A stretch of 64,000 nucleotides of DNA, taken from NCBI RefSeq assembly GCF_900102375.1, contig NZ_FNBO01000014.1:1-64000 (forward strand), in the 5' to 3' direction. This document shows positions 185 through 37,240 of the stretch, in pieces (the stretch's first letter is position 1; every line of letters starts with the position of its first letter). The DNA is from Halorubrum xinjiangense (GTDB lineage: Archaea; Halobacteriota; Halobacteria; Halobacteriales; Haloferacaceae). The translations under genes were made by a program, and so were the position numbers. Under the pieces are notes generated by a model. That model made no database searches. It was not told where the DNA came from and saw only the letters and a program-made list of their open reading frames with translations.

Positions 185-1653
<1,469 letters not shown>

Positions 1654-32927: not shown

Positions 32928-33881
32928 CTACCGGAACCCCATCGCCTCGATCTGCTCTTGGTACCGGTTGCGGATGGTGACCTCGGTGACCTGCGCGACG
33001 TCGGCGACCTCACGTTGGGTCTTCTTCTCGTTACAGAGCAGCGAGGCCGCGTAGATGGCGGCCGCCGCGAAGCCGGTTGGGGACTTCCCGGAGAGTAACC
33101 CCTGTTCGGCGGAGACGTCGATGATTTCGGTCGCCTTCGACTGGACCTCTTCGGAGAGCTGGAGCGCGGACGCGAACCGGGGGACGAACTGCTTGGGGTC
33201 GACCGGCTTCAGCTCGAGTCCCAGCTCCTGGGAGATATACCGATACGTTCGACCGATCTCCTTTTGCGGCACCCGCGAGACGTCCGCGACCTCGTCGAGG
33301 CTGCGGGGGATCCCCTCCTGTCGGCAGGCGGCGTACAGGGCGGCGGTGGAGACGCCCTCGATGGAGCGGCCGCGGATCAGGTCCTCGTTGAGCGCGCGTC
33401 GATAGATGACGGACGCGACCTCGCGTACCGAGCGGGGGACGCCGAGCGCGCTCGCCATGCGGTCGATCTCCGAGAGCGCGAACTGGAGGTTGCGCTCGCC
33501 CGCGTCTTTGGTTCGAATCCGCTCCTGCCACTTCCGGAGGCGATGCATCTGCGAGCGCTTCTCCGAGGAGAGCGACCGCCCATAGGCGTCTTTGTCCTTC
33601 CAGTCGATCGTCGTCGTCAGCCCCTTGTCGTGCATCGTCTCCGTGATCGGGGCGCCGACGCGCGATTTCGACTGCCGCTCGTTGTGGTTGAACGCGCGCC
33701 ACTCCGGGCCGCGGTCGATGTTCCGCTCGTCTAAGACGAGCCCGCAGTCCTCGCAGACGAGCTCTTGGTCGGCGTCGGTGACGATGTTCTCCGAGTCACA
33801 CTCCGGACAGGAGACCGTCGATTCGTCCGTTTCCTGCTCCGTGTCCCGCTCCTGTTGCCGCTGGCGACTCGGACGTTCCAT
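32928..33881 (-). CDS. tfb: Transcription initiation factor TFB (second copy)
   Basis: This 317-residue TFB has the zinc ribbon Cys25, Cys28, Cys43 and Cys46, the [23 protein letters not shown]-reader region in the usual place, and two cyclin repeats. Its BRE-contacting HTH reads [20 protein letters not shown]. It is the more canonical of the two, with a short N-terminal tail. A TATA box (minus strand) at 33905-33914 predicts a leaderless transcript. Haloarchaea often carry several TFBs that divide promoters between them. Confidence 0.96.
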
Positions 33882-33914: not shown

Positions 33915-34254
33915 TTATCCACGTCTATTAACGATCCTGATGGTTCTCGGTTCGTTCTAATCACGGGATATCGGCTCATAGGGCGCGCATACTGGCAGTA
34001 TCGAGAATCTATCGGGTATCCGTCGACGACGGCGGCGGCGCTTCCGCGGTCCACCGTGACGCACGAAACGTGACCGTGAGTTGAGGTCGGATTCGCCGCG
34101 CCGTTCGCAAACCCCGGGCCCAGTTTAGACTCCGTCGTTCGTCGCCGGTTGCCTGCCCATTGACCGCCGTTTACTCGCCGTTCGCCCGCCATATCCGTCG
34201 ATTTCGGCCCCGATGCGGTCCGATTCCCGACGCCAAAATATTACTATCAAACAT

Positions 34255-34264
34255 CTATAAAGAC
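34255..34264 (+). promoter_or_regulatory. TATA box of METTL5 operon
   Basis: CTATAAAGAC lies about 30-39 bases before ATG 34294, within an AT-rich tract (34235-34275). A start site near 34282 and a leader of about 12 bases are expected. Confidence 0.55.
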
Positions 34265-34293
34265 TTTTGTATTACCTATGCCAATAGGTCGGT

Positions 34294-34686
34294 ATGAGTA
34301 CCACCTCGTCCCCGGGCATCGAACGCACGCTGCGCGGCTGTCGTCCCGCCGACGTCGACCCCGTCGTCATCGACGCGGCGGACTTAGACAGCACCGCGCC
34401 CGACCACCTCCGCGACCTCAAGCGGGGGCTCGCCGCCCGCGGCTACCAGCCCGCCGCGGTCGCGGCCGAGGCGACGTTCGACGCCGAGAGCACGCTCGAA
34501 CGCCAGCGCGAGGCCGACCGGCTCCGCGGGCTCGTCCGCGCGGCGTCGTTCCTCGGCGCCGGCCGGGTCGAGGTCAGCGTCGACGGCGAGGCGTCCAAGC
34601 AGGCCCGCACCGCCCTCGCGGCGCTCGCCGAGCGGGCCGACCGCGAGGGCGTCGAGTTCGTCCGCGTCGACGGCGACAGCGCCTGA
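34294..34686 (+). CDS. Haloarchaeal protein of unknown function, METTL5-linked
   Basis: The product has 130 residues. It has VVIDAADLD and HLRDLKRGLAARGYQPAAV in the first half, a charged helix (STLERQREADRLRGLVRAA) in the middle, then VEVSVDGEASKQARTALAALAERA. This looks like a compact alpha/beta domain without cysteines. I do not recognise a named family. Its stop lies 3 bases before the ATG of the METTL5-like methyltransferase, so the two form a tight operon. A role as RNA-binding partner is inference only. Confidence 0.75.
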   Translation: MSTTSSPGIERTLRGCRPADVDPVVIDAADLDSTAPDHLRDLKRGLAARGYQPAAVAAEATFDAESTLERQREADRLRGLVRAASFLGAGRVEVSVDGEASKQARTALAALAERADREGVEFVRVDGDSA

Positions 34687-34689
34687 CCG

Positions 34690-35313
34690 ATGGCGACGAA
34701 GCGGTCGCTCGCGACCAAGCTTGGCGTCGTCGCCGGCTTCGAGCGTCCAGACGCCGCCCTCGAACAGTACCCGACGCCGCCGGAGCTGGCCGCCCACGTC
34801 GTCCACCTCGCCGACCTCCACGGCGACGTCGAGGGCCGGACCGTGATCGACCTCGGCGCCGGCACCGGGATGCTCGCACTGGCCGCCGCGCTGCGCGGTC
34901 CGGCCCGCGTCGTCGGCCTCGAACTCGACGGCGGCGCGCTCGCGACCGCCCGGGCCAACGAGCGCCGGGTCGCAGCCAGCGCCCCCGTCCACTGGGTCCG
35001 CGGCGACGCCACGCGCCCGCCGCTCGCCATTGCGGAGCCCGCGACCGTCGTGATGAACCCGCCGTTCGGCGCGCAGGATGGCAACCGCAACGCTGATCGG
35101 GAGTTCCTCGCGGTCGCGAGCGACCTCGCGGACGTCTCCTACTCGGTCCACAACGCCGGAAGCCGGGAGTTCGTTGAGGCGTTCGCCGCCGACGAGGGCG
35201 GGGAGGTCACCCACGCGTTCGCGGCGGAATTCCGGATCGACGCGCAGTTCGACCACCACACCGACGAGGCGCGCGAGATCGACACCGAAGTGTACCGGAT
35301 CGAGTGGGCGTGA
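34690..35313 (+). CDS. METTL5-like RNA N6-adenine methyltransferase
   Basis: This is a 207-residue class I methyltransferase. The SAM loop is DLGAGTGML at 54-62, and the catalytic motif IV is NPPFG at 123-127, the form used by N6-adenine methyltransferases of the METTL5 type. The N-terminus has EQYPTPPELAAHVVHLA, typical of this family. Human METTL5 methylates one adenine in 18S rRNA with TRMT112. The archaeal target is probably rRNA, but is not shown by sequence. The gene follows its 130-residue partner by 3 bases. Confidence 0.9.
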   Translation: MATKRSLATKLGVVAGFERPDAALEQYPTPPELAAHVVHLADLHGDVEGRTVIDLGAGTGMLALAAALRGPARVVGLELDGGALATARANERRVAASAPVHWVRGDATRPPLAIAEPATVVMNPPFGAQDGNRNADREFLAVASDLADVSYSVHNAGSREFVEAFAADEGGEVTHAFAAEFRIDAQFDHHTDEAREIDTEVYRIEWA

Positions 35314-35353: not shown

Positions 35354-37240
35354 CTACTGCCGGCCCTCGTAGCGCTCCCGCTGCGCGACCCGCACGCGCG
35401 TCTCGCCGCGCTCCGCGTACAGGACGTCGCTCTCTCTGACGAGTTCGACGCCCCGGAGCGTCACCGACTCGTTCGCCGCCGGGAGCGGCGCGCTCGCGTT
35501 GCCGCCCGGACCGTCGACCCGCAACTCGAATCCCCCTCGCGTCGCCGCGACGGTGACGTTGCGGCCGTCGATCCGGGGCTCGGCCCGCGCCGGCTCGCTC
35601 GTGAACAGCGTCCGCCTGGTCTCGTTCCGTATCGCGTCGACCCGGTAAGTCGGACCGCCGTTTGCGGCGACCCAGCCGACCCGCTGGACCCAGACGGTCT
35701 CGCGCCAGCCGGCGCCGCCCACGTCGACCGCGCGGTACCCCCAGAACGCGAGGTTCCCCTTCGAGACGGCGGTCGTCCATATCTCGCGGTCCGGGTCGCT
35801 GACGATCACCCCCGAGGTGTTTACCGAGGTCGAGCGCCCGAACGCCTCGACGTCGACGACGCCCACCAGCTGGTCTTCCACATCCTCCGCGTAGGTCACC
35901 TGATACCCCTCCACCTCGATCGGGTCGCCTGGGAGGTCGCCGTCGTCGACGGCGACGAGGTTCGGGACGACGCCCGGCCCGGCGACAGCCGCCAGCGACG
36001 CGACGAGCAGGAAGAGACCGATCGCCGCCGGCATCGCCGACCGGACCCCGCCCCGGATCGTCTCGGGCTCCGGAACCGCTCGACTCGGCCACAGGGGCTC
36101 GTCCCGCGAGACGGCCGCGACGGCGACGACCGCGGCCAGCAGGGCGAGCAGCCCGACGCCGACCGCGCGGTACAGCTCGTACCGCTCGTTGCCGAGGTAC
36201 CAGTACACCGCCCACAGCCGGCGCGAGGCCCCGAACAGCAGCACCGCGCCGAAGACGACGGCCGCCGACCGCTCCGTCGCGTCAGTGCCGGACCCGTCGC
36301 CGTCCGCGGTCGCGAACGGGTGGTACCGCCACCGCCCCGCGGTCGTGTGCGGGTCCGCGTGGTGGTCTCCGCCGTTCGACCTCCGGGCTCGCCGTCGCAG
36401 GAGGACGACCGCGACCAGCGCGCCGCCGATGAGGCCGAGCGCGTGCCCCTGGATCGCGACGTTCGCCCACCCTGGCACGCCGTAGGAGGGGGACGCCTCC
36501 GCGAACGCCACCGGGACGCGGACGGCGTCGTAGAGGACGCTGACGAGCGTCGTCCCCGCCATCGCGACGACCGCGGCGACGGGGCGCGAGACGAGCGCGA
36601 ACCCCCAGTACGCGAACACCACCACGGAGAAGCCGATCACCGGCCCCAGCGCGAACAGCGCCGAGAGGAGGCCGAACGCGACGGCGGCGCTGGGGACGAT
36701 CAGGAACGCCCGGACGTAGGGGTTCGCGGCGGGCGACTCGACGGCCGCCACCCGGCTCGGCACCGCTCGGATTCGCTCGGGGAGTCTCCGCAGGCGGCTT
36801 GGGAGCCGCCGGAGGCGGACGGCGAGCCGGTCCCCCTCGTCGACCTCGCGTCCGGTGGGGAAGTGGCCGTACGCGTACTCGGCGAGCCCGCCCGCGACGA
36901 GCGCGGAGAGGAGGTTTCCAGTGATGTGCCCGCGGCCCGAGTGTGCGAAGCTAGACCAGAAGAGGCCCTCCGGGTAGAAGTACGACCACGACCGGAACGG
37001 GATCACGACCGGTCGGTTCGGGTCGTCGACGCCGGACTGGACGAACAGGTACACCCCGAGCACGCCGGCGATCACGACGAGCGTCCCCCACGGGACGCCG
37101 AGGAGGAGCCGCGCGCGGAGCGCCCGCGTTCGGCCGGCGCCCGCGCGGTCGACGAGGAACACCGCGGCGAGCGCGACGACGACGGCGACGCCCCCGGCGG
37201 CGAGGTGAACGGCGTCCGACGTCAGCGCCTCCGCGACCAT
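35354..37240 (-). CDS. Rhomboid-family membrane protein
   Basis: This is a 628-residue membrane protein. Rhomboid features are visible in the first half: HITGNLLSALVAGGLAEY (the HxxxN-like helix), a serine in the GPVIGFSVVVFAYWG segment, and a histidine in the IQGHALGLIGGAL helix. The canonical GxSG is here GFSV, so protease activity should be doubted until tested. The second half (about 380-628) adds several more helices and an extracytoplasmic-looking domain with NVT and NASA sites. It is convergent with the METTL5 gene. Confidence 0.8.
   Translation of the reverse strand: MVAEALTSDAVHLAAGGVAVVVALAAVFLVDRAGAGRTRALRARLLLGVPWGTLVVIAGVLGVYLFVQSGVDDPNRPVVIPFRSWSYFYPEGLFWSSFAHSGRGHITGNLLSALVAGGLAEYAYGHFPTGREVDEGDRLAVRLRRLPSRLRRLPERIRAVPSRVAAVESPAANPYVRAFLIVPSAAVAFGLLSALFALGPVIGFSVVVFAYWGFALVSRPVAAVVAMAGTTLVSVLYDAVRVPVAFAEASPSYGVPGWANVAIQGHALGLIGGALVAVVLLRRRARRSNGGDHHADPHTTAGRWRYHPFATADGDGSGTDATERSAAVVFGAVLLFGASRRLWAVYWYLGNERYELYRAVGVGLLALLAAVVAVAAVSRDEPLWPSRAVPEPETIRGGVRSAMPAAIGLFLLVASLAAVAGPGVVPNLVAVDDGDLPGDPIEVEGYQVTYAEDVEDQLVGVVDVEAFGRSTSVNTSGVIVSDPDREIWTTAVSKGNLAFWGYRAVDVGGAGWRETVWVQRVGWVAANGGPTYRVDAIRNETRRTLFTSEPARAEPRIDGRNVTVAATRGGFELRVDGPGGNASAPLPAANESVTLRGVELVRESDVLYAERGETRVRVAQRERYEGRQ

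Follow-up and report, generated by a model that had tools for sequence, protein, structure and literature searches.

A conserved haloarchaeal gene companion of METTL5 with a predicted half-barrel-like fold

Organization of the METTL5 locus

The window analysed here is a stretch of 64,000 nucleotides from Halorubrum xinjiangense (contig NZ_FNBO01000014.1, positions 1 to 64,000). The genes and features considered below are as follows.

32928-33881, minus strand: TFB gene, the divergent neighbour upstream of the pair
34239-34275, plus strand: 37-nt promoter element upstream of the companion–METTL5 unit, assigned from matrix score, spacing and pattern counts
34294-34686, plus strand: companion gene, an ORF of 130 amino acids belonging to a family without a name
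34684-34692, plus strand: junction TGA CCG ATG, in which the companion stop and the METTL5 start lie 3 nt apart in the sequence
34690-35313, plus strand: METTL5-like N6-adenosine methyltransferase gene (COG2263), an ORF of 207 amino acids with NPPF at residues 123-126
35354-37240, minus strand: rhomboid-like gene, the convergent neighbour downstream of the pair

An earlier note on this DNA described a 130-residue ORF ending 3 nt before a METTL5-like gene, and the sequence agrees: the TGA of the companion is followed by CCG and then by the ATG of the 207-residue ORF. This junction is too short to hold a separate promoter. Since both flanking genes lie on the opposite strand, the companion and METTL5 form a unit of two, and they are presumably co-transcribed.

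METTL5 and its predicted rRNA target

The second gene encodes METTL5, an assignment that we regard as practically certain and that upholds the label "METTL5-like" in the earlier note. In sequence searches, the protein matched Pyrococcus horikoshii PH1948 (PDB 1wy7; E 1.8e-30, residues 1-204 covered) and human METTL5 (9ohl and 6h2u; E about 4e-25, residues 5-204 covered). Its similarity to solved members of METTL5 (COG2263) is full-length, and fold comparison with the predicted model returned PH1948 and human METTL5 as the best structural matches. The NPPF catalytic motif is present in 115 of 115 METTL5 rows of the alignment. The window protein thus resembles PH1948 and the human METTL5-TRMT112 system in sequence, fold and motif, whereas the haloarchaeal system differs by a dedicated companion gene upstream of METTL5 (221 of 392 genomes).

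Archaeal METTL5 is predicted to produce m6A in helix 44 of 16S rRNA in H. volcanii. In the available parts of Grosjean et al. 2008 (PMC2584109) and of PMC8481954, the COG2263 protein HVO_1475 is assigned as the enzyme for m6A-1432 of 16S rRNA (E. coli 1500), in the former as a prediction. Table 1 of PMC3017900, a source available in part, notes no phenotype for the HVO_1475 deletion in H. volcanii, and growth is given there as 0.0266 and 0.0177 per h, compared with 0.0227 and 0.0133 for the wild type. The predicted helix-44 target sequence, GTAACAAGGT..., occurs in the 16S rRNA copies of the H. xinjiangense genome, one occurrence starting at window position 1611. This part of the window (1611-1633) is a 3' stretch of 16S rRNA, and three such copies exist genome-wide.

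Conservation and adjacency of the gene pair

Conservation of the pair, proposed in the earlier note as a check, was confirmed in two sets of loci. Among 59 relatives, the companion was detected in 41 and METTL5 in 57, and all 41 companion copies lie directly upstream of METTL5 on the same strand. The second set comprises 80 named loci, the best of 88 relatives, from Halorubrum, Haloferax, Halopenitus, Natrialba, Natrinema and others; here METTL5 is directly downstream of the companion on the same strand in every case. In 79 of these loci, the METTL5 start follows the companion stop at a distance of -1 to 10 nt; the remaining locus has 90 nt. No natural companion-METTL5 fusion was found in the 80. 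Adjacency was thus checked in 121 copies from two sets with overlapping species. No strong companion match away from METTL5 was present among the matches listed for the 59 relatives and the 392 genomes. As candidate relatives elsewhere, the marginal matches in G041 and G052 (E about 0.003) and in G634 (0.0016) were set aside; the genes look unrelated by eye. The pairing of the companion with METTL5 is far beyond chance.

The companion and METTL5 are the only families present in all 80 named loci; 41 of these contain a TFB relative and 64 a relative of the rhomboid-like protein. In H. volcanii, the rhomboid gene rho1 is HVO_1474, numbered next to HVO_1475, in the available part of PMC11985538. 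Gene order makes HVO_1476 the likely H. volcanii companion, and no mention of it by locus tag was found in the literature searched. The loci examined include H. profundi and H. marinum, with H. volcanii itself outside them. Likewise, no description of the companion was found in the available portions of the literature on METTL5/Trm112 in archaea or Haloferax, on rRNA m6A and on PH1948.

Across 392 Halobacteriales genomes, the companion was detected in 221, including one marginal match (G184, E 0.003), and 171 yielded no companion match. METTL5 was found in 388 of the same 392, so METTL5 persists without the companion. Among the genomes of good quality, the counts are 345/345 for METTL5 and 202/345 for the companion. 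Within Halorubrum, the genus of the window, three genomes (L074-L076) also carry METTL5 without it. In a sample of the phylum, 34 of 294 genomes matched the companion, 33 of them inside Halobacteriales and the other being the marginal G634; with a wider companion profile, all 12 matches fell inside Halobacteriales. In a tree built from 116 METTL5 rows, companion presence requires 12 changes, compared with a shuffled mean of 30.9, and the starred branches force just two. This distribution fits an old gain followed by repeated losses but does not prove it. Companion and METTL5 distances correlate (r 0.77, 3160 pairs), a value that shared ancestry alone could give.

The companion matches in G020 and G118 each contain one internal stop codon (TGA and TAG, respectively). 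These stops reflect either decay or, for G020, an end effect, as a shorter match there has no stop.

For comparison, 36 companion-less loci were chosen, in which a profile of 51 companions found no match up to E 10. The genes upstream of METTL5 in companion-less loci are varied. A diphthamide synthesis (Dph2-like) gene occupies this position in L064 (2999-4033, minus strand; confirmed with Pfam) and, as judged by eye, in L061, L066, L069 and L213. In these several companion-less haloarchaea, the adjacency links two translation-related modifications. A histidine-kinase-like gene is found there in L070 (confirmed with Pfam) and in L212 and L214 (by eye).

A promoter element that goes with METTL5

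The 37-nt element upstream of the unit consists of a left block, TATTACTAC..GCAT, and a right half resembling BRE and TATA motifs, in which TTTGTAT starts about 28 nt upstream of the unit's first start codon. The available part of PMC4983044 describes haloarchaeal promoters with a TATA motif TTWT and a BRE CGAAA, and 72% of coding transcripts as leaderless; the right half of the element fits this published pattern. Scored with a matrix of 75 relatives, the element reaches 60.4 bits, and the next best place in the window on either strand scores -9.8. TTTGTAT lies 27-31 nt before the companion ATG in 75 of the 80 loci; the remaining five lack the exact heptamer and score 14.3 to 46.1 bits. Identity within the element is 66% between 27 Halorubrum-type and 41 other loci, compared with 27-36% in its flanks. 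A looser pattern allowing up to three mismatches was found in 45 of the 59 genomes at 46 places, of which 45 immediately precede the METTL5 unit and one (G010:C260) is located elsewhere; the reversed pattern was found in 2 of 59. A first count of TATA motifs had given little signal (10/80 versus 4/80).

Five of these 45 genomes (G001, G010, G032, G043 and G053) have no companion. Within 250 nt before METTL5, 13 of the 36 companion-less loci score at least 10 bits, compared with 1 of 108 control stretches, and at a threshold of at least 20 bits the counts are 11 and 0. In six companion-less loci, the spacing from the element to METTL5 equals the usual spacing from the element to the companion. 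When each stretch was compared with 200 dinucleotide shuffles, 19 of the 36 loci passed, but so did 12 of the 108 controls; the stricter cut on the matrix score separates the two groups better than the shuffle test. Since the element precedes the companion where this is present and METTL5 in many genomes where it is absent, the sequences indicate that the promoter travels with METTL5, the companion having entered or left the unit beneath it.

In the same loci, the neighbouring TFB gene has a promoter conserved to nearly the same degree (best 37-nt match 26.8 versus 28.0), so the strong conservation of the METTL5-unit element is not special by itself. The rhomboid gene promoter is less conserved (21.3 versus 26.0, same loci), and the uspA promoter scores 29.7 in few loci. 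No perfect dyad was found in the window element, and we therefore claim no operator. A sigma-70 and terminator scan and Rfam found nothing.

The companion family and its predicted fold

The companion family has 16 invariant columns across 51 members. The earlier note described the protein as lacking cysteines, which is incorrect: a single cysteine, C16, is present in the window protein and is conserved at 90% or above in alignments of 36 and 51 members. The note was right, however, that the protein is not a TRMT112 by sequence, as a CxxC pair is missing and the matches listed for it up to E 1 include no Trm112p.

The window companion does not reach the cut-off of any Pfam or NCBIfam family, and no NCBIfam family was listed for the 51 members at E up to 0.01. 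The barrel family AP_endonuc_2 scores 19.5 bits against a cut-off of 31.1, which places the companion outside the family by score. Weak matches to this xylose-isomerase-like barrel family occur in 29 of 36 members (E up to 0.1; best 8.2e-6) and, at E up to 0.01, in 11 of 51. Within the window genome, the same family has four above-cut-off matches elsewhere, and the companion appears at E 0.0067. Matches to Pilus_CpaD are about as strong (24 of 36 members, and 11 of 51 in the larger set), and thus sequence alone does not decide the fold. The CpaD identity was set aside, as structure comparison points to barrels. Neither a single-protein search nor a profile search found a convincing solved relative.

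A single-sequence AlphaFold2 model of the companion had a pLDDT of 71.4 and a pTM of 0.62. In a Foldseek search with this model, the first eight rows were isomerase-type barrels (E 3.6e-3 to 1.2e-2) and rank 9 was a designed binder; no row reached E 0.001 or below. VIA-align gave a best Z of 9.4, with 24 of 1000 chains at Z 8 or above, the level below which, by the program's own caution, a score may reflect merely a common arrangement. Judged by title, most of the 50 rows listed are sugar isomerases, epimerases or allied barrel enzymes; the alignments mostly span the first half of the barrels (e.g., 15-149 of 271), with some extending further. In a profile comparison with three full barrels encoded in the same genome, the companion covered template positions 52-151 of 286 (probability 45.5%, E 2.2e-4). 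An alignment-based model agreed in the order of its strands and helices, and its block means over residues 21-120 ranged from 77 to 96. These models suggest that the companion is probably the N-terminal half of a xylose-isomerase-like TIM barrel. It would share with these barrels the strand and helix order and the first-half fold, whereas the listed chains comprise about 270 residues or more and the companion only 130.

With four predicted strands, the companion is not a complete eight-stranded barrel with metal ligands. In the xylose-isomerase-like family, most metal ligands lie in the half that the companion lacks, and its last strand carries no conserved Glu in the 51-member alignment. The companion monomer is therefore unlikely to act as a barrel-type metalloenzyme. 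In barrel enzymes, ligands bind just after the strands; in the companion, the conserved S33, T34 and F62 and the nearly conserved D65 directly follow predicted strands 1 and 2. Should the predicted fold be correct, the companion would be similar in size and architecture to engineered (beta-alpha)4 half barrels such as those of HisF. These are laboratory constructs in the available parts of PMC5770038 and PMC8250049, whereas the companion would be natural. According to the same two sources, a half barrel can be a self-contained unit, and a full barrel can be engineered from identical halves.

Relation of the companion to Trm112 and METTL5

The earlier note proposed that the companion could be a haloarchaeal stabiliser of METTL5, in analogy to TRMT112. 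A Trm112p match above the family cut-off was found in all 59 relatives, whether the companion was present or absent, so the companion does not replace Trm112 and METTL5 has its usual partner at hand. The companion was accordingly rejected both as Trm112 and as a stand-in for a missing one. Trm112 is likewise a small protein associated with a translation-related methyltransferase, but it is encoded elsewhere in these genomes. Archaeal Trm112 is discussed in the available part of the review PMC5372719.

A comparison of METTL5 sequences (44 rows versus 31, after two partnered rows were dropped for length or X and five deep partner-less rows were left out) revealed no clear companion-linked signature. 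In most of the top 20 differing columns, the companion-bearing window protein carries the residue of the partner-less set, and the differing columns look lineage-bound. An in-frame read-through of the window pair was modelled with AlphaFold2 as a fusion, using 87 rows (35 read-through, 30 companion-only and 22 METTL5-only), a linker of only two residues plus tails, and no control run. The model contained two good domains with a mean pLDDT of 85.1 and a pTM of 0.63, a value about as expected for two domains of such size without a fixed arrangement. In the PH1948 structure (1wy7), one molecule is listed in four chains, and no second molecule is named. The ubiquity of Trm112, the companion-less METTL5 genes, the METTL5 columns and the fusion model speak against an obligate stabiliser and leave that proposal unsupported; a weak, transient or 30S-bound role is possible.

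Discussion

Our best overall reading, to which we assign a probability of about 0.5, is that the companion is a dispensable, non-catalytic and lineage-specific component of the METTL5 pathway whose fold resembles a half barrel. In haloarchaea, a single conserved promoter would serve two genes, first that of the accessory protein and then that of archaeal METTL5. The accessory protein would be a free-standing N-terminal half barrel, and it probably works by binding rather than catalysis because it lacks the half bearing most catalytic ligands. It may form a homodimer or dock on METTL5 or the nascent 30S subunit, and may thereby tune where or when METTL5 acts. That the companion works in the METTL5 pathway is slightly favoured, and direct binding to METTL5 is doubtful. 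A more elaborate version remains speculative: a natural, free-standing half TIM barrel that has become a non-catalytic METTL5 cofactor specific to the lineage and acting beside Trm112, for example by positioning METTL5 on helix 44 of the 30S subunit during assembly, while the whole unit is driven from a single-place promoter element of its own.

The strongest competitor, though an improbable one, is that the companion has a job unrelated to METTL5 and merely shares its promoter. Many genomes keep METTL5 without it and no packing is predicted in the fusion model, as this explanation would have it; an unrelated gene would nevertheless be expected to move, and none of the 121 checked copies, drawn from overlapping species, lies away from METTL5. 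The tight and conserved gene order would suit a stabiliser that METTL5 needs, as human METTL5 needs TRMT112. We consider this unlikely, given the Trm112 match in every one of the 59 relatives, the retention of METTL5 without the companion, the fusion pTM of 0.63 and the PH1948 structure, in which all four chains are listed as one molecule.

Two half barrels might instead pair into a full barrel that acts as an enzyme or small-molecule binder. The engineered halves, self-contained and joinable in the available parts of PMC5770038 and PMC8250049, provide a precedent. The conserved residues after strands 1 and 2 also occupy the usual ligand-binding place, but most metal ligands belong to the missing half and the last strand lacks a conserved Glu, which makes such an activity quite improbable. 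Least probable of all is a regulator of the unit's expression, acting by promoter binding or by translational coupling at the junction. The short junction in 79 of 80 loci and the single place of the element would accommodate it, but the protein itself is conserved, and five companion-less genomes keep the element, whose use is thus independent of the companion.

The preferred reading, a dispensable accessory protein in the METTL5 pathway, concerns a small-subunit m6A enzyme that humans and archaea have in common. Another protein linked to METTL5 in more than half of the sampled haloarchaea would offer a tractable entry to the control of m6A. H. volcanii is usable for this question, as HVO_1475 has already been deleted with no growth defect reported in the available part of PMC3017900. 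A natural half barrel, if true, would also bear on the origin or decay of the TIM barrel, studied with engineered halves in the sources available to us.
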